From: a virus
IMG/VR virus record: IMGVR_UViG_3300010389_000149
Coordinates: 1-23,195 of that record
Direction: 5' to 3' (one strand)
DNA length: 23,195 nt
Shown here: positions 3,379 through 20,270 of the stretch, piece by piece
How positions within the stretch are numbered: position 1 is the first letter of the stretch
How the letters are laid out: the number at the start of each line of letters is the position of its first letter
Made by a program: the position numbers and the translations under genes
The notes under the pieces: model-generated
What the model saw: only the letters and a program-made list of their open reading frames with translations
What the model was told of the DNA's origin: nothing
Database searches by the model: none

Positions 3379-3924
3379 ATGTTGAAGACAGCATCGAAAC
3401 TGGTCAGTGCAGATCAGATCATCACTCCGGTTACGCTGGCTGATGATCTGACGCTTTCGACCGGCAATCTTGTTATTGGCACCAGCGGAAAGGGTATTGA
3501 TTTTTCCGCAACGCCTGGGACTGGCACAAGCGAACTGCTTGATGATTACGAGGAAGGGACGTGGACGCCGGAAATATCAGCATTCACGAACCCAACTTTA
3601 ACGTACACGTCGCAAATTGGTCAGTATACAAAAATTGGTGATGTTGTTTATTGTCGTTTGTATTTAGATTTTGATATTACAGTTGGTGGTATTGGTGCTT
3701 TAATTTCATCGTTGCCATTTGCCGCTGCAAATTTAAGCACAGCGTATCAGCATTCGCTGATGGGTTATGAAGCATCTACAAACGTAGAACCAACAAAAAT
3801 GGGTGGTGTTGAGTTTGGGACTGCAACGATGCGTTTATATCGAGACATTGCGGCAACTACGACAAGCGCGTCTGTGACAGGCACAAGAGCGTTTTATATC
3901 CAATTTTTTTACTTTGCAGGGTGA
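3379..3924 (+). CDS. Tail fibre / receptor-binding-type protein with YEEGTWTP motif, 181 aa
   Basis: A 181-residue protein starting 12 nt after the adaptor, with AAGGAG at 3365-3370 overlapping the previous stop codon and 8 nt before the ATG. The N-terminal ~60 residues look like a shaft or linker (LADDLTLSTGNLVIGTSGKG). The DDYEEGTWTPEI motif near residue 56 marks a beta-rich domain that recurs at the ends of many phage fibre and tail proteins, followed by a YTKIGDVVYCRLYL-type strand pattern. No enzymatic residues are evident. The first third has backbone-like GC, but from about 3580 onwards the gene becomes strongly AT-rich, suggesting its distal domain was exchanged. Likely a fibre or receptor-binding part; the ligand is unknown. 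Confidence 0.7.
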   Translation: MLKTASKLVSADQIITPVTLADDLTLSTGNLVIGTSGKGIDFSATPGTGTSELLDDYEEGTWTPEISAFTNPTLTYTSQIGQYTKIGDVVYCRLYLDFDITVGGIGALISSLPFAAANLSTAYQHSLMGYEASTNVEPTKMGGVEFGTATMRLYRDIAATTTSASVTGTRAFYIQFFYFAG

Positions 3925-3933
3925 GGTGACAAG

Positions 3934-5424
3934 ATGGCTCTTACAAAAGTCACTTACTCAATGATCGACGGTTTGTTGGTAAATGTTAAAGACTTTGGTG
4001 TTGCGGCTGATGGTCTTACAGACGACCGAGCTAATATTCAAGCAGCCTACGACGCAACACCTGACGGTGGGACATTGGTCTTTCCAAGTAGTCAAACACT
4101 CAGAATAAATTCAAAACTGATATTCAATCGTTCTGTGAATGTTGATTTTTCTGGATGCACCTTACTTCTTGATAATTCTATAAGTCCAAACAATCACCAC
4201 TTTAATGTTTTTTCTCAGACCGATGCTGAAGTCACTTGGACTGAGACGATCAACCAAGGCACATATACGTTTACGGCGGCAAATACTCTTAGCGTTGGCG
4301 ACAGCATTGTTTTGTTTCTTGGAACAGATCCATACGACCCAAACGAACAACATTTTGTCCGAGTATGTAATGTTATTTCTGCATCTGCGGCTGCGTTCAC
4401 TGTTGATGTGCATGTTCCGTACAACATAAATGGCACAACGCACAAATACGCAAAAATTACAAACTTGGTTTCCAACGTTACGTTTAAGAACCTGAACATT
4501 GACTATGTGGCAGGAACGACGCCTGACACCAACATCTTTGCTTATTATATTTACAACGTCAGATTTGAAAACATTACAGCAACGAAATGCAGGATTCTGC
4601 TGACCGTGTTCAAGTCGCACAACGTTGATGTTGTAAACGTCGACGCAACAGTTGTTCGGTCTGGCATTTCTAGCCACGGTCGCGTGTTTACAGGCTACCA
4701 GCTTGAGAACACCAGCCTGGAAAACATTGCAGCATACGGATCAGATAATGAACAGATGCTGTTCTTAGAAAGTTGGTGCCGTGGCGTCAAGATCAAAAAC
4801 TTGCAACTGAACTCCACAAACACATCCCAGACGTCTGCGATGGTGTGGGTGTCTGGCGGGTCTTACGATGTTGAGATTGACGGGTTCTTGTTTTCTCCAG
4901 CGACTGCGGTTGATGTGGTTGGCACCGGCGGGACACCGTCCGATTACAGGATCAAGAATCTTCGCATGTTGGCTCAACCTTCTTTCGTTGACATGCGAAA
5001 GGTTGAAAGTTTCGCTGACGTGCCAAAAGGTGTCAGCTTCATGGGGCCGCTTGGTACTGTGCAGAACCGCGCAGAAGGCACACTTACAACCAGTGGGACA
5101 AAATATGTTTCAATCGCTAATGGTGTGCTCCGCAGGTTGTGGGTTTATGCTGAAAGCATCACCGATCTTGCAGTCTATGTTGCAAACAGTAACGGTGATG
5201 TTTCCAACATTACTTCACAGCTTACTGCCAATCAATGGAAAGAAGTAAACGCTGGATACAACTATGGAGGGTTGTTTGCAGCAAATAATCCGACATTTCC
5301 AACAAAGACAGTTCAGCTTTTTGCCGGAGCTGGTTTTCCAGCAACACAAAAAGTTTCGATTGTCGCTGAATATTGGTCAATTGATGCAAATGCAAATACG
5401 TTTAGAGTTGAAACCGCATTTTAA
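3934..5424 (+). CDS. Pectate-lyase-fold (beta-helix) tailspike, 496 aa
   Basis: A 496-residue protein with GAGGTG at 3923-3928 as ribosome site. The N-terminus (MALTKVTYSMIDG) followed by NVKDFGVAADGLTDDRANIQ and DGGTLVFPSSQT is the classic start of a pectate-lyase-superfamily right-handed beta-helix tailspike. The centre shows repeated Asn-ending turns (VKIKNLQLNST, VEIDGFLF, YRIKNLRML) expected of helix rungs. The last ~120 residues (from about TTSGTKYVSIANGVL) form a separate beta domain, possibly for trimerisation or glycan binding. Spikes of this fold usually bind and cut or deacetylate surface polysaccharide; no catalytic residues can be assigned by eye. The gene is AT-rich compared with the backbone. 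It has no head-binding domain of its own, so it presumably attaches through the upstream adaptor. Confidence 0.8.
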   Translation: MALTKVTYSMIDGLLVNVKDFGVAADGLTDDRANIQAAYDATPDGGTLVFPSSQTLRINSKLIFNRSVNVDFSGCTLLLDNSISPNNHHFNVFSQTDAEVTWTETINQGTYTFTAANTLSVGDSIVLFLGTDPYDPNEQHFVRVCNVISASAAAFTVDVHVPYNINGTTHKYAKITNLVSNVTFKNLNIDYVAGTTPDTNIFAYYIYNVRFENITATKCRILLTVFKSHNVDVVNVDATVVRSGISSHGRVFTGYQLENTSLENIAAYGSDNEQMLFLESWCRGVKIKNLQLNSTNTSQTSAMVWVSGGSYDVEIDGFLFSPATAVDVVGTGGTPSDYRIKNLRMLAQPSFVDMRKVESFADVPKGVSFMGPLGTVQNRAEGTLTTSGTKYVSIANGVLRRLWVYAESITDLAVYVANSNGDVSNITSQLTANQWKEVNAGYNYGGLFAANNPTFPTKTVQLFAGAGFPATQKVSIVAEYWSIDANANTFRVETAF

Positions 5425-5435
5425 GGGAAACAATC

Positions 5436-5696
5436 ATGGCACTTAAAAAAGATTTTACAAAAATTCAAGATGGTTTTGACGGAACGCTTGTTGCAAAAGA
5501 CGTCTATTGGAGAGTTTGTTACATTCAAGGTGACAAAACTCTCATTAAATACAGAATTGAAGGAAAAGTGGGAAGCGCATTTATCCACGGAAACGAGTAT
5601 TCTTTTGTTCCATCTATGGGTGACAAAAATTTTATCAAACAGGCTTATGAGCATGCTAAGGGCTTGCCAGAATTTTCTGATTCGACAGATTGCTAA
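5436..5696 (+). CDS. Hypothetical phage protein following the tailspike, 86 aa
   Basis: An 86-residue protein (ribosome site GGGAAA upstream of the ATG) in the AT-rich tail cassette. It starts MALKKDFTKIQDGFDGTLVA, continues with beta-prone strands, and ends with NFIKQAYEHAKGLPEFSDST and a final Cys. Proteins with a similar C-terminal FIRQAYLHLKTLPEF-type ending occur right after tail fibre genes in other phages, where their role is unknown. No membrane segment or catalytic motif is present. It could be a spike-associated, chaperone-like or structural protein; position is the only guide. Confidence 0.65.
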   Translation: MALKKDFTKIQDGFDGTLVAKDVYWRVCYIQGDKTLIKYRIEGKVGSAFIHGNEYSFVPSMGDKNFIKQAYEHAKGLPEFSDSTDC

Positions 5697-5714
5697 TTTA
5701 TTAAGAGGTTGACC

Positions 5715-8445: not shown

Positions 8446-8636
8446 TCATGATCCTCCAACTTTTGGAGTCCCTTTTCGTTTTCAGACTCCACAACCGGCT
8501 TGGTGTACCCAACAGGCGCTTGTCCTGGTTCAAGCTTCCACGGCATCCACTGGCCGCAGCAGCAATACTTCAGGTCAAGGGTGCGCATCAGCGCCAAGTC
8601 CTCGGACCCGCAAGACCAACACCTTGACGTGCTCAT
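8442..8636 (-). CDS. Small Cys-rich (zinc-ribbon-like) protein, 64 aa
   Basis: A 64-residue protein starting at an ATG that overlaps the stop of the PAPS-reductase-like gene by 4 nt; the ribosome site is weak, so coupling to the upstream gene is likely. It has CWSCG (C6, C9) and a YCCCGQW cluster (C25-C27), spaced as in a small zinc ribbon, followed by an unstructured acidic C-terminal half ending EKGLQKLEDHE. No catalytic domain is present. Its tight link to the PP-loop gene could mean the two work together, but small zinc ribbons are also common stand-alone phage proteins. The longer frame reaching 8732 is inside the neighbour and was not used. Confidence 0.7.
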   Translation of the reverse strand: MSTSRCWSCGSEDLALMRTLDLKYCCCGQWMPWKLEPGQAPVGYTKPVVESENEKGLQKLEDHE

Positions 8637-9580
8637 TCGCACAGCCCATAAGTTGATGAGCAGGCGCTGACGTCCTGCTCCATCAGCTTGAACATATCCC
8701 ACTGGTGGCCGCCTCTGCCGGTTTTGCTCCACTCCACCTTCTTGTAAATGTTGCCGAGCGCGTAAAAGTCTGTGTTAGGGTCTTTGGATGGGTACGCAAA
8801 GAACGTCGAGCTAACGCTCTTGGTAGCTTGTGTCACGACACGTTCCCATTCCGCGATCCGATCAATGTGCTCGGGGAATCGTGACGCCACCTCGAACAGT
8901 TCGCGCTTGTTCGTGTTGATACAGGGCATGCAGCCCACGCGACCCATCCCTTGCTTGTACAAAGGATTCGGCTCCACGCCGTGTTTGCGGTGCTGGGCGA
9001 AGACCTGCTCAACATTCCAATGCAAGATTGGACGGAAGATCAGGAAGCCCTCTTTTTCTGGTTCCCACTGGCCGAACTCCACGTCGCGCTGCGGAAGTTT
9101 GGCGCGACTGGCGCTCTCTTCCGCGCGCACACCGCGCCAGGACTCGAGGAACTTCTTCCCTTTCATTACTTCCATCAAGTGCTTGTCTGCAACTTCGCGC
9201 TTGAGGTACTGGGTGCAGAACTGCGCCATTCTGCTTGGGAACCTTCCCTTGATGATACAGAGGTCAAGGAATGGATTCCCCGTCGGTCCCTTGTCGAACA
9301 CTGCCAGCACACGTTCAACGTTCGCTTGGTCCACTCCCTTCTCTGGCCACTTGTCTCTGACATAGTCTCGGCGCTTCCACCACCAGTCGGTGAAGTCAGC
9401 CTTGAGTTTGGCGATCTTCACGCCGGTCTTTTGTTCGAGGTAGTCCACGTACTCATACGTGGCTTCATGCTCGTTTCCTGTGTCGCAGAACATCGCAGAC
9501 ACAGGGGACTCTGATTGCTCCAACGCCAACAGCAGGCTTGCCGTACTGTCTTTGCCTCCACTCACTGACACAAGAATCAT
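8633..9580 (-). CDS. PAPS-reductase / PP-loop family protein, 315 aa
   Basis: A 315-residue PP-loop ATPase-type protein. SGGKDS at residues 7-12 is the ATP pyrophosphate-binding loop. FCDTGNEHEATYEYVDYL, SRMAQFCTQYLKRE (C122), WRGVRAEES and CMPC (C217, C220) match the phosphoadenosine-phosphosulfate-reductase family as found in phages. The three Cys are arranged as in members that carry an Fe-S cluster (for example DndC-like enzymes), though that link is by pattern only. Further Cys sit at 307 and 314. The ATG at 9580 has GGAGGGG 5-6 nt upstream, so I prefer it to longer starts. The true substrate is open: sulfate reduction, sulfur insertion into nucleic acid, or another adenylation reaction. 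It overlaps a 25-aa membrane micro-gene upstream by 4 nt. Confidence 0.85.
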   Translation of the reverse strand: MILVSVSGGKDSTASLLLALEQSESPVSAMFCDTGNEHEATYEYVDYLEQKTGVKIAKLKADFTDWWWKRRDYVRDKWPEKGVDQANVERVLAVFDKGPTGNPFLDLCIIKGRFPSRMAQFCTQYLKREVADKHLMEVMKGKKFLESWRGVRAEESASRAKLPQRDVEFGQWEPEKEGFLIFRPILHWNVEQVFAQHRKHGVEPNPLYKQGMGRVGCMPCINTNKRELFEVASRFPEHIDRIAEWERVVTQATKSVSSTFFAYPSKDPNTDFYALGNIYKKVEWSKTGRGGHQWDMFKLMEQDVSACSSTYGLCE

Positions 9581-9654
9581 TTGAACCCCTCCACGAATAA
9601 ATAACATGCCGCCAGGTAAAGCGCGATCAGCCAGATCACTTCGAGGGGGCGCAT
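9577..9654 (-). CDS. 25-aa membrane micro-protein overlapping the PAPS-reductase-like gene
   Basis: A 26-codon ORF on the minus strand. The ATG (plus-strand cat at 9652-9654) is preceded by AAGGGGAGG about 5 nt away, one of the best ribosome sites in the window. The TGA overlaps the ATG of the PP-loop gene in the usual ATGA manner. The product starts MRPLEVIWLIALYLAACYLF and ends VEGFK: one transmembrane helix with almost no soluble part. It overlaps the end of the upstream 76-aa membrane-protein gene by 19 nt. No family can be named. Confidence 0.65.
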   Translation of the reverse strand: MRPLEVIWLIALYLAACYLFVEGFK

Positions 9655-12629: not shown

Positions 12630-12876
12630 GCGCAGCCTCCAGAGAGTCGATGACGCGCACGTCACAGCCCAAGGCGCGGCGGCGTTCGTGGTCCTTCGCT
12701 TGCGAGGGTGTGGGCGCCTTCCCTGGCGCCTTACACTCAACAAACACCACGCGACCACCTGGTAGCGTCACAATGCGATCAGGCACCGAGCGCATCCCGC
12801 TGTTGAACTTCTCGCACATCCCGCCTAGTTCCCTCACGCGCTTCACCAGCGCCTGTTCTATCGTCTTCTCAAGCAT
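12613..12876 (-). CDS. VRR-NUC domain nuclease, 87 aa
   Basis: A stand-alone VRR-NUC domain of the PD-(D/E)xK nuclease superfamily. The catalytic set is visible: E7 in TIEQALVKRVRELG, the PDR of SVPDRIVTLPGGR (D33), ECK in VVFVECKAPG (E47, K49) and Q59 in TPSQAKDHER. Such phage proteins act on branched DNA; family members include the FAN1 nuclease domain and phage Holliday-junction resolvases. The ATG at 12876 has GAGGAC just upstream, and the gene overlaps the polymerase stop by 8 nt and the SNF2 start by 17 nt. The VRR-NUC/SNF2 pairing is a repeated arrangement in phage genomes, suggesting joint work in DNA processing. Confidence 0.85.
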   Translation of the reverse strand: MLEKTIEQALVKRVRELGGMCEKFNSGMRSVPDRIVTLPGGRVVFVECKAPGKAPTPSQAKDHERRRALGCDVRVIDSLEAARAFSV

Positions 12877-14668
12877 GTAGTCCTCGGTTAACCATTTCGT
12901 TTCGCAGTTGCTCGGCTTTAGCGATGTACCAGCCATGATCCACGTCCTCGGGGAATGCGTCGGGCAAGTCCATGAGCGGACGACAGCCGTCCGAGTTCGG
13001 GACTTTGTTTTGGTTGCGCGCGTAGCGAATGCAGGTCTGTTCGTCGATTGCCGACGACTTGTAGAAGCGCACCGCTTTACCCAGGTCCTCGCCACACCAG
13101 ACAGCGCCACCGTCAACCCGGCGGACCGTCACGAACTGGCGGATATCGCGGCATCCGGTGATCGTGTCAGCAATGGGCGTCTTGTCTGCAAACCATCGTG
13201 CGACCGCCTGGTAGACAATCAGGCCGTCAGGATTTTTTGCCAGACTTGGCGGGGCGAAGACTCCCTTACCCTTGATCGTGCCGTCAGTCTTGACGGCGCA
13301 ATAGTTGTTCACGTCACGCGATGCCAACACGCGATAATCCGTTCGCTCCAACTCGTAAGTCGTCTCCAGTTCCCAGTCAAACATCAGTTCTTCAACTACT
13401 GGCGCCAGGTGGTCAGGGTGATAGATGACGATGCCGTCGGTGTTCGCAGACACGACACGGACGCCGCGACCCTCTAGCGCTTCGATCAGCATCAGTAGCG
13501 CAAGTTGTCCGGTGATCGTGGTCTGAATCAGCAACTCTGGCGCGTAAAGCTTGGAATACTTGGAGCCAAACTTTCCGAACGAGCCATTAAGGACAATCTT
13601 CAGCGTGTCAGCAGTCACCTTGTCGCCGCTACGCTTGGCAGCCAGACGGCGGGTGATGATGCTCTGATAAAGGTCGAGGAACGGGGCGCCAAGGGCGTCA
13701 GGCGCCAGGCGTTGCTGCATGATGATGGACGGGTAATAACTCGCCACGTCGTAATCCGCGAGGATCATACCTGGCGTGCGGTAAATCGTCTGGCACTTCT
13801 CGCAAGAGTGAAGACCGCCGATGCCCATCTGATAGACGCTCTCGCCTATCTGGATCTTGGTCTCTCGCAGCCAGGCAGGCATCACCACAGAGCCAGTCGA
13901 GCCAACGCTGAACGGGTGCGCGAGAATCTGACGGTAGATCATGCTGAGGGCTTTGGTCTCGAACGACACAAAGCCGGGGTCTTTGTAGTGGAAGGCATGG
14001 CCGTCAGGGATAGTCGGCTTGCTGTACTCTTGACCGGTCAGGGTGGACAACTCGCTTATGATCAGATGCTCGGCGATCTGGGCGTCGGATCGACTCCGGA
14101 AGTCTTGCCCGTACTGGTCGCTCATGGCTTTGCGGAGTTCGATCTGCGGCATGAGCGCGTCAAGCAGCAGACCGGTGGTCTCCAGGTCGTTGACGCAGTA
14201 TTCCACCAGTTGCTTGCGCTGGTCCGGCGTGATGCTGGCGTCAGGGTCGATCGGGAGACTTTGCAGGCGTGGCGCGTGCAGGCGTCCGCCGTAAATTTTG
14301 AGGCTGGCATTGCCTATTGGGAGTTCGATCAGGTCGATATGTTGCCAGGCTTGCGGGACCGTGATCTTCAGTTCTTTCAGCACGCGCCAGCCTGGTAACT
14401 TACTCTTGATGATGGTATCCGACGCTTGCTTTAAATCGCCACAGGACGCGCCAGAGAGCGCGTAGGCAATCAAAGGCATATCGTAGTGGTTGCCGTTAAA
14501 CGTCACGCTTGTAGAGCCTGTGAGGACCTTCCGCAGGCTTTTGACTTGCTCAGCATCAAGCCGTCCGGCTTTACCGTGGCATGACCAGAACTTGCGCTTT
14601 TTGGTTTGGTGGTGTTGGGCAGCGACCAGAAAATAGTCGCGGTAGACTTCGATATCGATGATGACCAT
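12869..14668 (-). CDS. Family B DNA polymerase with 3'-5' exonuclease, 599 aa
   Basis: Replicative polymerase. Exonuclease motifs: DIEVYRDYF (D5, E7), FNGNHYDMP (N58, D63) and YCVNDLETT (Y157, D161). Polymerase motif A: DYDVASYYPSI (residues 305-315). Motif B: KIVLNGSFGKFG (K357, N361). Motif C: SANTDGIVI, with N409-T410-D411 where most family B enzymes have D-T-D; the second, metal-binding Asp is kept. Length is at the short end of the family, near the protein-primed enzymes, but no terminal-protein gene is seen. It sits in a block where many related phages carry a family A polymerase instead. A 63-nt gap with a strong hairpin separates it from the DUF2815 gene upstream. Confidence 0.85.
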   Translation of the reverse strand: MVIIDIEVYRDYFLVAAQHHQTKKRKFWSCHGKAGRLDAEQVKSLRKVLTGSTSVTFNGNHYDMPLIAYALSGASCGDLKQASDTIIKSKLPGWRVLKELKITVPQAWQHIDLIELPIGNASLKIYGGRLHAPRLQSLPIDPDASITPDQRKQLVEYCVNDLETTGLLLDALMPQIELRKAMSDQYGQDFRSRSDAQIAEHLIISELSTLTGQEYSKPTIPDGHAFHYKDPGFVSFETKALSMIYRQILAHPFSVGSTGSVVMPAWLRETKIQIGESVYQMGIGGLHSCEKCQTIYRTPGMILADYDVASYYPSIIMQQRLAPDALGAPFLDLYQSIITRRLAAKRSGDKVTADTLKIVLNGSFGKFGSKYSKLYAPELLIQTTITGQLALLMLIEALEGRGVRVVSANTDGIVIYHPDHLAPVVEELMFDWELETTYELERTDYRVLASRDVNNYCAVKTDGTIKGKGVFAPPSLAKNPDGLIVYQAVARWFADKTPIADTITGCRDIRQFVTVRRVDGGAVWCGEDLGKAVRFYKSSAIDEQTCIRYARNQNKVPNSDGCRPLMDLPDAFPEDVDHGWYIAKAEQLRNEMVNRGLHA

Positions 14669-16779: not shown

Positions 16780-16833
16780 AGTGCTAAGGTTAGACTACCC
16801 TTGCGGGGCAATCAAGTATTTTTGGAGGGTCAA

Positions 16834-17043
16834 ATGATCAGCGATGTGGTGGCATGGTTTGGCGGTCAGAGCGAGACGGCCAGGGCGGTCGGCGTCTCGT
16901 CTCAAGCCGTCTTTAATTGGCTGGAGCGTGGCAAGATTCCGCCAGCAAGAGCGATTCAGATAGAGCGCCTGACGGCGGGACACTTCAAAGCAGTGGAGAT
17001 TAGCGACAATGGACACGGGACAGAAGATGACAGGCAAGCGTGA
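16834..17043 (+). CDS. YdaS/Cro-like transcriptional regulator, 69 aa
   Basis: A 69-residue protein with GGAGGG (16824-16829) before the ATG at 16834. MISDVVAWFGGQSETARAVG followed by VSSQAVFNWLERGKIPPARA and IQIERLTAGHF is the pattern of the YdaS/Cro family: first helix, GGQSETARAVGVSSQAV HTH, and the W.ERGKIPPARAxxIE segment. The C-terminal ~20 residues are polar and probably disordered. It lies next to the nested dyad at 16742-16779, its likely operator, and its 3' end overlaps the primase gene by 35 nt in another frame. A frame extending to 16801 lacks a suitable start. Inferred role: control of the two divergent replication transcripts. Confidence 0.8.
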   Translation: MISDVVAWFGGQSETARAVGVSSQAVFNWLERGKIPPARAIQIERLTAGHFKAVEISDNGHGTEDDRQA

Positions 17044-19492
17044 AATTTTCCCGGTGGTTAAGGTCTGGGACAAGACAAAGAAGAAGTGGAACAAAAGACC
17101 AGCTGTGCGCGGATCATGGCAAGGCTATGAAGCCACAGCCGCAGAGATGGACAGAGCGGAGAACCTTGGCCTCGGTATTCCGCCTGGTCGCGTGGTGGTG
17201 GACGTTGACGCATACAAAGGCACGACGACAGATCAGATCGACGCGGCCTTGGGCGTGTCACTTGATTGGGACGGCGCCAGGATTCAGCGGACAGTTTCGG
17301 GCGGTGAGCATTATTGCTTTCTACTGCCAGAGGGTGCGGTGGTCAGGCAAGGCGACTCGCTTTTGGGCGTGTCAGGCTTTGACACCAGGGCGACGGGCAA
17401 GGGCTGGATATGTTCAGGGGACGGCTACGAAGACTTGACGGTGCTCGGTCTGCCGGATGCCTTGTGGGAGGAAGACTTCCCCGTGTTGCCGATGGAGGCG
17501 GTGGAGGCGATCAACGGCAAGTCTGGCGTGGCGGTCGTTGAGGATGATCCTTTCGCCGATGATGGACTGTCAGGGCTTGAGGTCGCTATCGCTTCGCAGC
17601 CGTTGGACGGGATCGGGGATGCCGAGATCGAGGAATATTTGAACCGACTCGGTGACGACTATCTGACGACTTACGACAAGTGGGTCAAAGTCGGGATGGC
17701 TATCCACCACCAGGTCGGCGGGGCGGTGCGTGGCGCCAATATGTGGGCGGCATGGTCTCGACAGTGTGACGAGCGAGAGCTGTGCAACGCGCAAGGCGTC
17801 AGGGTCGAGTTCGATGGTGACGAGATCAAGCGGAAGTGGCATTCCTTCGGGCAGCGGTCCATGACCAAGCCGGTGCGCTTTGACTACGTGATAGCGGCAG
17901 CGGGTGGGCGGTTGCGTGAAGTTGCGGCGGTAGGCGATCAGACGCTCTTTGAGGACGTTTTGCAGGATGCGCGGAACGTTGATGGGGTGGAGGCGTATCA
18001 ACGCTTAAAAGAGCGCGTGGGGCGTTTGGGCGTGCGTCAGTTGCCGCCAGACTTGCGCGAGATGATTGCAAAAGAGGTCTGGGACATTTGGGCGAAGGGT
18101 GCGGGCGTCGCGCTAGGGCAGATCAAGCGGGCGTTTGCACCAGGGAAGGTTAAACGCGAGGTGGTTGGGGAGCCGGACGCTGACGGGGAAGTTCAGCGCC
18201 CGGCATGGCTCGAGGATTGGGTATACATCGAGAGACCGACGCTATTCTACAGCATAGACAAACGCTATGGAATCAAGCGCGAGGCGTTTAACGCCAAGTT
18301 CGACCGGATGCCCGAGGTCATTATGTCCGAGAAGCGTGCAGCGGACTATGCGTTGGTGGATATGCGCTTGCAGACGGTCGTTGACGACTTCTACTTTCCA
18401 GGCGCCGCGGACCTGTTCGAGTACGAGGACAAGTTGATGGTTAACTCGTACATCGACAGGCGCGTCGAGCCGCTGGACGTGTGGGACGATGAGGCGCTTG
18501 AACTGGTGGCGCTGTTTGAAGGGCAAATGGCGATGCTGTTCTCGGACGCAGGGGAGCGCGGAATCGTGCTGGACTGGATGACCTACGTCATCAACAATCC
18601 CGGCAAGCGGATCAATTGGGCGTTGTTCATCCAAGGCGCGGAAGGGATCGGAAAGTCGTATGTGGTGAACACGCTTCAGTATGTAATGCGCGATGCCGTG
18701 AAGACCGTGGAAGCCTCAGCGATCAGCGGACGCTTCACGTCATGGGCTCACGGTTCGCTGGTGGTAGCGGTCGAAGAAATCAGAATCAGCGGTCAGAACA
18801 AATGGGAAGTCATCGACCGGCTGAAACCCTTCATCACCAACGACACCATCCAGATTGAGGAAAAGGGCCGCGATCATCGGGTGGTCGCCAACTTCTCAAG
18901 CTTCATCTTTCTCAGCAATCACAAAGACGCGATTCCGCTGGTCGAAGGCGATCGGCGTTATGCAGTCATCTTTTCGGACATTCAGACCCAGGAGCAGCTA
19001 TTCGCCGCTACAGGTGGACGCGAGGAAGCGTCGCGCTACTTTGATCGGCTGTTTGCTTTGAGCCAGAAGCGACCCGACGCGCTGCGGCGGTACTTCATGG
19101 ACCGGAAAGTGTCTCCCGACTTCAGGCCACAGGGGCGAGCGCCAGAGACGAAAGCGAAGGCGATCATGCGCGAGATGAACGTCTCGCCAGAGCAGAATGA
19201 GGTTGAGGACGCCATTGATAAACACGACTGCGCGATCATCAACAGAGACCTGGTGGACGTTACCTGGTTGCGGAATTTGTGCGACATGGAGAACGACCCG
19301 CTGCCACAGAAGCGCGCCTTGAGCAAAATCATGGAGCGGTTGGGCTATGAATTGATCGAGGGACGGCGCATCAGAATCGCAAAGACCAAGGTCAATCACT
19401 ACATCTACAGGACGCCAAACGTCACCGACGGGCAAGCGCGCCAGATTGTCCGACAATTCCACGATGAAACCGACGAGATAGCGCCGTTTTGA
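17009..19492 (+). CDS. Primase-polymerase / SF3-type helicase fusion, 827 aa
   Basis: An 827-residue multidomain replication protein. Residues ~1-165 are a bifunctional primase-polymerase (AEP) domain with the catalytic DVD (VVVDVDAYKG, D65 and D67), H101 in SGGEHYCF, and FDTRATGKGWICS (~124-136). Residues ~208-280 match a PriCT-type linker (YDKWVKVGMAIHHQVGG, then NMWAAWSRQ and KWHSFG). The C-terminal half is a VapE/DUF5906-like superfamily 3 helicase: Walker A GAEGIGKS (543-550), Walker B LVVAVEEIRI (~590), and FIFLSNHKDAIPLVEGDRRY as arginine-finger region. It likely primes and unwinds at the origin. The ATG at 17009 has GGAG 10 nt upstream; an ATG at 17027 is the alternative. It overlaps the regulator by 35 nt and ends before a strong terminator. 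Confidence 0.85.
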   Translation: MDTGQKMTGKREIFPVVKVWDKTKKKWNKRPAVRGSWQGYEATAAEMDRAENLGLGIPPGRVVVDVDAYKGTTTDQIDAALGVSLDWDGARIQRTVSGGEHYCFLLPEGAVVRQGDSLLGVSGFDTRATGKGWICSGDGYEDLTVLGLPDALWEEDFPVLPMEAVEAINGKSGVAVVEDDPFADDGLSGLEVAIASQPLDGIGDAEIEEYLNRLGDDYLTTYDKWVKVGMAIHHQVGGAVRGANMWAAWSRQCDERELCNAQGVRVEFDGDEIKRKWHSFGQRSMTKPVRFDYVIAAAGGRLREVAAVGDQTLFEDVLQDARNVDGVEAYQRLKERVGRLGVRQLPPDLREMIAKEVWDIWAKGAGVALGQIKRAFAPGKVKREVVGEPDADGEVQRPAWLEDWVYIERPTLFYSIDKRYGIKREAFNAKFDRMPEVIMSEKRAADYALVDMRLQTVVDDFYFPGAADLFEYEDKLMVNSYIDRRVEPLDVWDDEALELVALFEGQMAMLFSDAGERGIVLDWMTYVINNPGKRINWALFIQGAEGIGKSYVVNTLQYVMRDAVKTVEASAISGRFTSWAHGSLVVAVEEIRISGQNKWEVIDRLKPFITNDTIQIEEKGRDHRVVANFSSFIFLSNHKDAIPLVEGDRRYAVIFSDIQTQEQLFAATGGREEASRYFDRLFALSQKRPDALRRYFMDRKVSPDFRPQGRAPETKAKAIMREMNVSPEQNEVEDAIDKHDCAIINRDLVDVTWLRNLCDMENDPLPQKRALSKIMERLGYELIEGRRIRIAKTKVNHYIYRTPNVTDGQARQIVRQFHDETDEIAPF

Positions 19493-19504
19493 GCACCAAG
19501 GCTA

Positions 19505-19530
19505 GGGGCGCAATCTTTGCGCCCCTTTTT
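19505..19530 (+). terminator. Strong rho-independent terminator after the primase-helicase gene
   Basis: GGGGCGCAA (19505-19513) and TTGCGCCCC (19517-19525) form a perfect 9-bp stem with a 3-nt loop, followed by TTTTT at 19526-19530. It starts 12 nt after the stop codon and separates the replication transcript from the packaging genes. Confidence 0.9.
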
Positions 19531-19531
19531 G

Positions 19532-19751
19532 TTTTGCGCACCTCTTTGCGCACCTTCCTAAGTTATTGATTTTATTTCTATAACTAACTAAAAGTGCTTA
19601 AAGTGCTCAAAATATAATGAAATAGCAGGGAATAGGGGAGAGAGAAAAATAGGGGGAAAAGGGTCGTATGAATATCGTAATTTCGTATATGAGTAATACA
19701 AGAAATTTTGAGCACTTTGCGCTTTCTGCGCACATTGCGCACTTTTGCGCA
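19532..19751. other. Non-coding repeat block: TGCGC iterons, 14-bp inverted repeat and purine tract; candidate replication origin
   Basis: The 388-nt gap from 19493 to 19880 holds no convincing gene. After the terminator come TTTTGCGCAC (19532-19541) and TTTGCGCACC (19545-19554). At 19718, 19727, 19736 and 19746 TGCGC recurs every 9-10 bp, mostly as TTGCGCA. AAAGTGCTCAAAAT (19600-19613) is perfectly inverted at 19705-19718, and AAAGTGCT is directly repeated with a 9-bp period at 19591 and 19600. Between the arms is an AT-rich stretch with a nearly pure purine tract (~19625-19663). Iterons flanking an easily melted segment, right after the primase-helicase gene, are typical of a replication origin. 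A packaging site or multi-operator promoter is the alternative. Confidence 0.5.
19613..19618 (+). promoter_or_regulatory. Perfect TATAAT -10 box inside the repeat block
   Basis: TATAAT at 19613-19618 directly follows the left arm of the 14-bp inverted repeat, so a protein bound to that arm could block it. No good -35 lies 16-18 nt upstream (AAAAGT). It could start a rightward transcript into the packaging genes or an origin transcript, or be incidental to the AT-rich sequence. Confidence 0.3.
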
Positions 19752-19765
19752 TTTCGCCGTGGTGT

Positions 19766-19794
19766 TTGACTCTCGGTTGCCGTTGTGGTGTGAT
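19766..19794 (+). promoter_or_regulatory. Candidate promoter for the packaging operon
   Basis: TTGACT (19766-19771) lies 17 nt before TGTGAT (19789-19794), matching sigma-70 consensus at 5 of 6 and 4 of 6 positions. Transcription would start near 19801, about 80 nt before the chosen start of the small terminase gene. Confidence 0.45.
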
Positions 19795-19880
19795 TGCGTG
19801 GACGGTGACTACTTCACCTGGTGGATACTCCACGATTGAACGTCAACGCGAACCCGGACGCACAACCGGAGATTAGGGTT

Positions 19881-20270
19881 ATGGTAAATCGGACACACAA
19901 GCCGACCGAAGAAACGCGAGCCCAGGTCAGGGCGCTTGCGGCATTCGGGACGGATCAAGAGCACATCGCTAAGTTTGTTGGGTGCAGTCACCCAACGCTG
20001 CGCAAGCATTATCCTGACGAGCTTAAGTTTTCGGCTATAAATGCGAACGCTCAGGTCGGGCAGTTCCTGTACCACATGGCGAGCGGGAACGCGCTGCGAG
20101 ACGGCGCGACGCATGGCGAATGCTCAAGGGCCGCGATGTTTTGGGCTAAAACCCGAATGGGTTGGCGCGAGACGGACCGACTTGAGCACACTGGCGCAGA
20201 CGGTTTGCCAATCACGTTCCAGCGCATAGAGCGCGTGGTCATCGATGCCAAGACCGAAGACGAAGACTGA
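19881..20270 (+). CDS. terS: Terminase small subunit, 129 aa
   Basis: A 129-residue protein: MVNRTHKPTEETRAQVRALA followed by AFGTDQEHIAKFVGCSHPTL RKHYPDEL, an N-terminal HTH typical of small terminases, and then an oligomerisation helix (ANAQVGQFLYHMASGNALRD) and RAAMFWAKTRMGWRETD, also characteristic. It recognises the packaging site and feeds DNA to the large subunit. I chose the ATG at 19881, with GGAG 9 nt upstream; a GTG at 19821 in the same frame would add 20 residues but has no ribosome site and the extra residues do not look like family sequence. The C-terminus is acidic (DAKTEDED). It overlaps the large subunit by 26 nt. Confidence 0.8.
   Translation: MVNRTHKPTEETRAQVRALAAFGTDQEHIAKFVGCSHPTLRKHYPDELKFSAINANAQVGQFLYHMASGNALRDGATHGECSRAAMFWAKTRMGWRETDRLEHTGADGLPITFQRIERVVIDAKTEDED

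Follow-up and report, generated by a model that had tools for sequence, protein, structure and literature searches.

Few environmental tailed phages have a known origin of replication. Does the repeat-rich DNA just downstream of a primase-helicase gene in the viral contig IMGVR_UViG_3300010389_000149 serve as the origin of this phage? We analyzed the whole of this linear contig (23,195 bp), which we call the window. An earlier note on this DNA had proposed a replication origin next to a gene for an SF3 initiator. We infer that this is correct: the layout of the repeats is kept in relatives, and in the close relative L002 the gap has not changed at all. Specifically, we think that positions 19530-19755 are the phage's replication origin and that it is served by the initiator encoded immediately upstream (probability of roughly 0.85).

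Ten copies of one iteron in three blocks

Between positions 19489 and 19754, the window contains ten copies of one ~10-bp iteron, TTGMGCACTT, in three blocks. The array lies directly downstream of the primase-polymerase/SF3 helicase gene, as the earlier note had said, and in fact it begins at the stop codon of this 827-codon gene: the iteron-like TTGAGCACCA (19489-19498) overlaps the stop. The other direct copies on the left are both TTGCGCACCT (19534-19543 and 19546-19555). These are 12 bp apart, which fits the 11-13 bp spacing in the grammar that we describe below. They are followed by a pyrimidine- and AT-rich slot of 35 bp (19556-19590; 80% AT and 37% purine) and then by two inverted copies, which read TTAAGCACTT (19592-19601) and TTGAGCACTT (19601-19610) on the minus strand. 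Next is a purine-rich AT tract of 95 bp (19612-19706; 66% AT and 73% purine), which is a candidate DNA-unwinding element. The right block has five direct copies: TTGAGCACTT (19708-19717), the degenerate TTGCGCTTTC (19717-19726), CTGCGCACAT (19726-19735), TTGCGCACTT (19735-19744), and TTGCGCATTT (19745-19754). All features other than the inverted copies are given on the plus strand.

The repeats that had been noticed earlier are all present. There are six TGCGC elements (at 19535, 19547, 19719, 19727, 19736, and 19746), four of which are 8-10 bp apart; a perfect 14-bp inverted repeat, with AAAGTGCTCAAAAT at 19600-19613 as its left arm and ATTTTGAGCACTTT at 19705-19718 as its right arm; a repeat with a 9-bp period (AAAGTGCT at 19591 and 19600); and, in the tract, the AT-rich and purine-skewed segment. 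Because AAGTGCTCAA is the reverse complement of TTGAGCACTT, all of these repeats are the same motif.

The repeats exceed what is seen in shuffled sequences. Across 19531-19765, the best 8-mer (allowing up to 1 mismatch) has 8 copies, versus a mean of 3.2 and a maximum of 6 in 1000 shuffles, and the longest perfect inverted repeat is 14 bp, versus a maximum of 13 in 1000 shuffles. The motif is not over-represented across the window as a whole (53 observed, 56 expected); it is clustered at the array. A TTGCGCC pair at 19506-19524 forms the stem of the intrinsic terminator of the primase gene (19504-19536, plus strand; 10-bp stem, 3-base loop, and a T run) and is not an iteron by itself. We regard an opposite-strand open reading frame of 81 amino acids (19588-19833) as spurious: it lies opposite the AT tract and the iterons, and its composition in L002 is odd.

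The cumulative GC skew, which the earlier note had expected to switch at the origin, does not switch at 19.6 kb within this 23-kb fragment. In the related Burkholderia phage AH2, the minimum of the cumulative skew (~55 kb) is about 2.5 kb away from the array. We did not use this as support for an origin because gene orientation also changes there.

The putative initiator

The 827-aa protein (encoded at 17009-19492, plus strand) combines a PrimPol-type N-terminus, a PriCT-2 domain, a DUF5906/VapE SF3 helicase, and a predicted C-terminal winged helix. Pfam identifies the PriCT-2 and DUF5906/VapE-like domains (PF19263, 5e-20), and the protein is assigned to a phage DNA primase family, PHROG 1156. 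The helicase part matches the CTR of the NrS-1 polymerase by sequence (5.5e-13) and by fold (1.6e-18); D5-type helicases and PriRep1 in complex with double-stranded DNA are lower-ranked matches. In the AlphaFold (AF2) model of the protein (pLDDT 87.5, pTM 0.52), residues 727-805 (19187-19423, plus strand) form a predicted DNA-binding domain with the winged-helix order of helices (H) and strands (E): H727-738, E748-750, H751-760, H768-777, E781-790, and E795-801.

An unchanged gap in a close relative

We found only one close relative, L002, whose initiator protein is 97% identical. From 19470 to 19780 there are zero differences in 311 bp, while ~13 differences would be expected given the local divergence of 4% at the end of the gene. 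In the flanking DNA, identity is 82-97% in most 150-bp blocks and drops to 73-77% around the other non-coding gap, which precedes the primase gene. Although a recent exchange may also account for the unchanged stretch, the differences end in the final codons of the gene and begin again beyond the array. Beyond the gap, L002 has a 1.27-kb gene (8872-10137 in L002) for a protein similar to ParB-domain proteins and DNA methyltransferases, which separates the gap from the gene for the small terminase subunit (TerS); the window does not have this gene.

Relatives with unrelated iterons share the layout

We gathered homologous genes from viral contigs, bacterial genomes, phage records, and plasmids. 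After removing similar gaps, we had 119 non-redundant loci. In most of them, the DNA after the stop codon is rich in repeats, and the repeat words are very different. The 350 bp 3' of the stop codon were enriched in repeats (above the limit from shuffles) in 74 of the 119 loci, versus 1 of 119 windows within the genes.

Where the layout is kept, the blocks come in the same order as in the window: direct iterons, a pyrimidine-rich slot that in some loci holds an IHF-like box, an inverted pair, a purine tract of ~98 bp, and direct iterons again. We turned this order into a spacing grammar that ignores the sequence of the iteron. It calls for two iterons 11-13 bp apart; an inverted iteron 40-66 bp beyond them, which may be doubled at 6-10 bp; a tract of 75-132 bp; and then a pair of direct iterons with a spacing of 6-15 bp. 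We derived the grammar from a discovery set, in which it was found in 25 of 80 loci, 0 of 400 shuffles, and 1 of 369 control windows. In a hold-out set of later loci from the same protein family, with the rules unchanged, it was found in 16 of 53 new non-redundant gaps, versus 0 of 265 shuffles and 0 of 271 control windows. Overall, 33 of the 119 non-redundant gaps (28%) satisfy the strict grammar, and many visibly similar arrays miss it by a single spacing. Of these 33 gaps, 32 have a pyrimidine-rich slot and 32 have a purine-rich tract; the tract averages 98 ± 13 bp and 62% purine.

If the array were an origin, then the repeats should persist in the same gap of related phages, as the earlier note had pointed out. 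The layout does persist after homologous primase-helicase genes in phages, in loci from bacterial genomes, and in a small plasmid. The iteron words in these relatives include TTGCGCA, GCACCCC, CGCCCCA, TCGGACC, TCGAACC, CTCGATC, TTGTCAC, GTTACCT, CTGTAAC, and CTGAGAG. Because the words differ so widely, selection acts on the layout. We found no such array 3' of the more distant homologs from YuA, KpV52, MSW-3, and Scuro.

The plasmid is pW47-1 from Proteus mirabilis, which is circular and 8955 bp. Its DUF5906/PriCT-2 gene is followed by an array of GGTTACA (grammar score of 11). The plasmid's annotated genes do not include a terminase. It also carries a tape-measure gene and may be a phage- or satellite-derived replicon. 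It is the only one of five plasmid homologs that fits the grammar: three others have repeats in other layouts, and the one from Moellerella has little.

Extra clusters of TTGCGCC iterons precede the main array on two of the contigs, from Methyloprofundus (L093) and Tolumonas (L094); on the Tolumonas contig, a block of about 86 bp that holds three iterons is repeated. Also, a 4401-bp record labeled "Enterococcus phage Efm 3-10" (OR844947.1) matches residues 382-781 of our query, as does the primase of phage Chi, at nearly the same identity. This record may be mislabeled or contaminated.

Other possible roles for the array

Could the array be a packaging site instead? The repeats of a cosB- or pac-like site would bind TerS, which is encoded 70-130 bp downstream, and the IHF-like box would correspond to the IHF site in the cosB of phage lambda. 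The cosB site also has R sites (PMC6092414). In the window, the genes for TerS and the large subunit (TerL) directly follow the array, and in BcepNazgul the annotated cos overhang is about 600 bp 3' of the primase gene. In AH2, whose cos has been mapped (PMC3483164), GGTCCGAA iterons are found on both sides of cos (L410/L411; 57548-58013 and 190-207), which implies that the putative origin of AH2 is interleaved with cos. However, the array does not travel with the terminase genes. AH2's own TerS and TerL are encoded 9-11 kb away, and in L002 the methyltransferase gene lies between the unchanged gap and TerS. Among the 56 non-redundant loci whose downstream DNA extends for 2.4 kb or more, just 8 have a TerL of the window's type there (other types of terminase could be missed), and 8 loci without this type of TerL satisfy the grammar. 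The array in pW47-1, a plasmid with no annotated terminase, also argues against packaging because a plasmid must have an origin but has no need of a packaging site, although this one may come from a phage or satellite. Overall, we consider a packaging site to be very unlikely. The heptamer TGCGCAC resembles the cos of Casjensviridae, but we did not use this: it is also a copy of the iteron, and the iteron words differ in relatives.

It seems similarly improbable that the array is a regulatory region with multiple operators, at which a regulator (such as a Cro-like protein) would control the late operon that starts with TerS. The array is indeed preceded by the primase gene's terminator and followed by the late genes, and there is a Cro/YdaS-like gene upstream of the primase. 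But we found no sigma-70-like promoter within 19400-19900, copies of the motif are not clustered before the Cro-like gene or the primase gene, and the array is found downstream of the primase regardless of the next gene. Nor is a purine-rich AT tract of ~98 bp between inverted iterons a feature of operators. Finally, the array might act as a stem-loop or an RNA element (a stem-loop origin as in pRN1, a transcript 3' end, or a structured RNA) rather than as binding sites for a protein. The inverted copies can pair: a single strand across this region folds better than shuffles do (z = -2.4), and a 14-bp perfect and a 25-bp imperfect inverted repeat, both of which are made of iteron copies, enclose a loop of 69-91 bp. 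An origin of this type has been proposed 3' of related genes, including that of phage BIP-1 (PMC4234260). However, there is no match in Rfam, and the relatives have several direct copies per block at a fixed spacing, neither of which is needed for a hairpin to pair. We give the stem-loop explanation hardly any credence.

An IHF-like box in the slot

The slot contains TAAGTTATTGATT (19559-19571, plus strand), which is an exact match to YAANNNNTTGATW, which we take to be the IHF consensus. Across the slots of the 33 grammar-positive relatives, on the same strand as in the window, 7 have an exact match and 15 have a match with at most 1 mismatch, versus 0.06 and 1.7 for shuffles; there are none on the other strand. 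The remaining 18 slots lack the box at this threshold. IHF could possibly bind in the slot (19556-19590).

We also considered the box as a marker for origins and rejected it: when we scanned viral contigs for exact copies of TAAGTTRTTGATTTTA, one of the 84 sites had an upstream primase and satisfied the grammar. Many unrelated viral contigs (L127-L206) have TAAGTTRTTGATTTTA in intergenic DNA and upstream of promoter-like sequences, sometimes as tandem or inverted copies. It appears to be a general site, for IHF or for another protein, and is not tied to origins next to primases.

How the origin might work

If the array is the origin, then the 827-aa protein would bind the ~10-bp iterons via its C-terminal winged helix, as suggested by the structural model and by what is known of the family. 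The iterons on either side of the 95-bp purine-rich AT tract point in opposite directions, so SF3 rings that assemble on them would be turned toward each other and might melt the tract. This is by analogy to other SF3 initiators, such as papillomavirus E1 and the T antigen of SV40. The DNA may also be bent at the IHF-like box, which lies between the left iterons and the inverted pair, although most of the relatives' slots lack it. The primase domain would then start DNA synthesis, and the phage's DNA polymerase (12869-14668) would presumably extend the primed DNA.

Comparison to known origins

The location of the origin 3' of the initiator gene has been tested experimentally in PICIs (PMC6092414) and in pRN1 (PMC4234260). 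In PICIs, two sets of iterons flank an AT-rich region 3' of the initiator gene, and the origin of EcCICFT073 has been tested; no other known bacterial replicon was reported to share this organization (PMC6092414). As in the window, the origins of PICIs and SaPIs are directly 3' of the initiator gene and have an AT-rich region between sets of iterons, and, as in these phages, the iteron words differ between elements. The Pri protein of EcCICFT073 also has a DUF5906-type SF3 helicase (PF19263, 5e-10), but it has a D5_N region where the window's initiator has PrimPol and PriCT-2. The origin of EcCICFT073, with TCTACC iterons, has a grammar score of 0; its iterons are more symmetric, and their spacing and orientation are unlike the window's. 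Also, PICIs are satellites that depend on a phage, whereas the window is from a tailed phage with its own DNA polymerase and structural genes.

The pRN1 plasmid has a stem-loop origin 3' of ORF904, which encodes a PrimPol-SF3-winged-helix protein, and the same was proposed for BIP-1 (PMC4234260). Both pRN1 and BIP-1 (BPP-1) resemble the window in having an HTH gene, a PrimPol/SF3/winged-helix gene, and an origin immediately downstream, and the BIP-1 protein has PriCT-2 as well. A stem-loop of ~100 nt without iterons was proposed for those replicons, while the window has iterons in three blocks. We suggest that stem-loops of the pRN1/BIP-1 type could be inverted iterons.

The primase-helicase of NrS-1 (PDB 6k9c and 6lrb) is the best relative of the window's SF3 part by both structure and sequence. 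Phage P4 has its origin elements, ori and crr, in two distant parts of the genome, and the primase domain of its alpha protein is of the bacterial type instead of the PrimPol type. Like the predicted architecture of the window's initiator, alpha combines a primase, an SF3 helicase, and an iteron-binding winged helix (PMC4234260). NrS-1 has an 8-nt recognition sequence for priming, with two copies in the genome, which is a possible origin (PMC7102993). Members of the Casjensviridae (BcepNazgul, AH2, and Chi) have related primase-helicase genes followed by repeat-rich DNA, and AH2's GGTCCGAA iterons fit the grammar. In BcepNazgul and AH2, cos is beside the repeats, and AH2's terminase genes are elsewhere, whereas in the window TerS and TerL adjoin the array and TerL is of the Terminase_3 type.

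We found no description of the three-block layout in tailed phages in the open-licence literature. An origin organization that was described as exclusive to phage satellites (PMC6092414) would extend to free-living phages, with implications for how a satellite and a helper phage could share, or avoid, the origin of the other. Because the grammar does not depend on the iteron's sequence, it could allow origins to be predicted from a contig wherever there is a PrimPol/PriCT-2/DUF5906 gene.

Iteron words and the winged helix

The dozens of natural pairs of proteins and iterons might reveal how the winged helix of an SF3 initiator reads DNA. Across loci, the similarity of the iterons tracks the identity of residues 741-827 best, and only weakly (Spearman correlation of 0.34, partial correlation of 0.16). 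In one clade, whose proteins are about 65-71% identical, some members have TCTAACCT at all of their iterons, while other members have TCGAACCT throughout. Since the copies are uniform within each member, the iterons seem to change together.

One locus, L294, is a mosaic. Compared to L291, it is 64-73% identical from 500 to 200 bp upstream of the stop codon and 85-97% identical from that point to the end of the array, so the last ~200 bp of the gene and the array (to 400 bp past the stop) are from a different lineage than the preceding ~300 bp. This fits the exchange of the DNA-binding domain and the origin as one piece, and plain linkage would also explain it. We consider it an even bet that these loci represent a family-wide class of origins in tailed phages, with three blocks arranged by one fixed grammar, in which the iterons change together, the winged helix and the origin are an exchangeable cassette, and each phage has its own private code.

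Neighboring genes

Directly upstream of the initiator gene is a small gene for a Cro/YdaS-like HTH protein (16801-17043, plus strand; P22_Cro in Pfam, 2.2e-16; carph-isopro in NCBIfam). There is a Cro gene at the same place upstream of the primase in AH2, and a regulator in Chi. We label the Cro/YdaS-like gene, the initiator gene, and the array as a repressor-initiator-origin cassette.

On the other side of the non-coding gap are TerS and TerL, as identified with Pfam and PHROG. The length that the earlier note gave for the small terminase, 129 amino acids, reflects the choice of an ATG codon: the reading frame opens at a GTG codon at 19821 and encodes 149 amino acids. Besides TerS, the Terminase_3-type TerL, and the DNA polymerase, the window encodes a helicase and a nuclease.

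Farther away, positions 3500-5700 are a low-GC island (38-49% GC, versus about 57%) with a gene for a pectate-lyase-like protein (3934-5424) inside it; the island is likely to be a recently acquired tail-spike module. A phosphoadenosine phosphosulfate reductase-like gene (8633-9607, minus strand) adjoins the replication genes.
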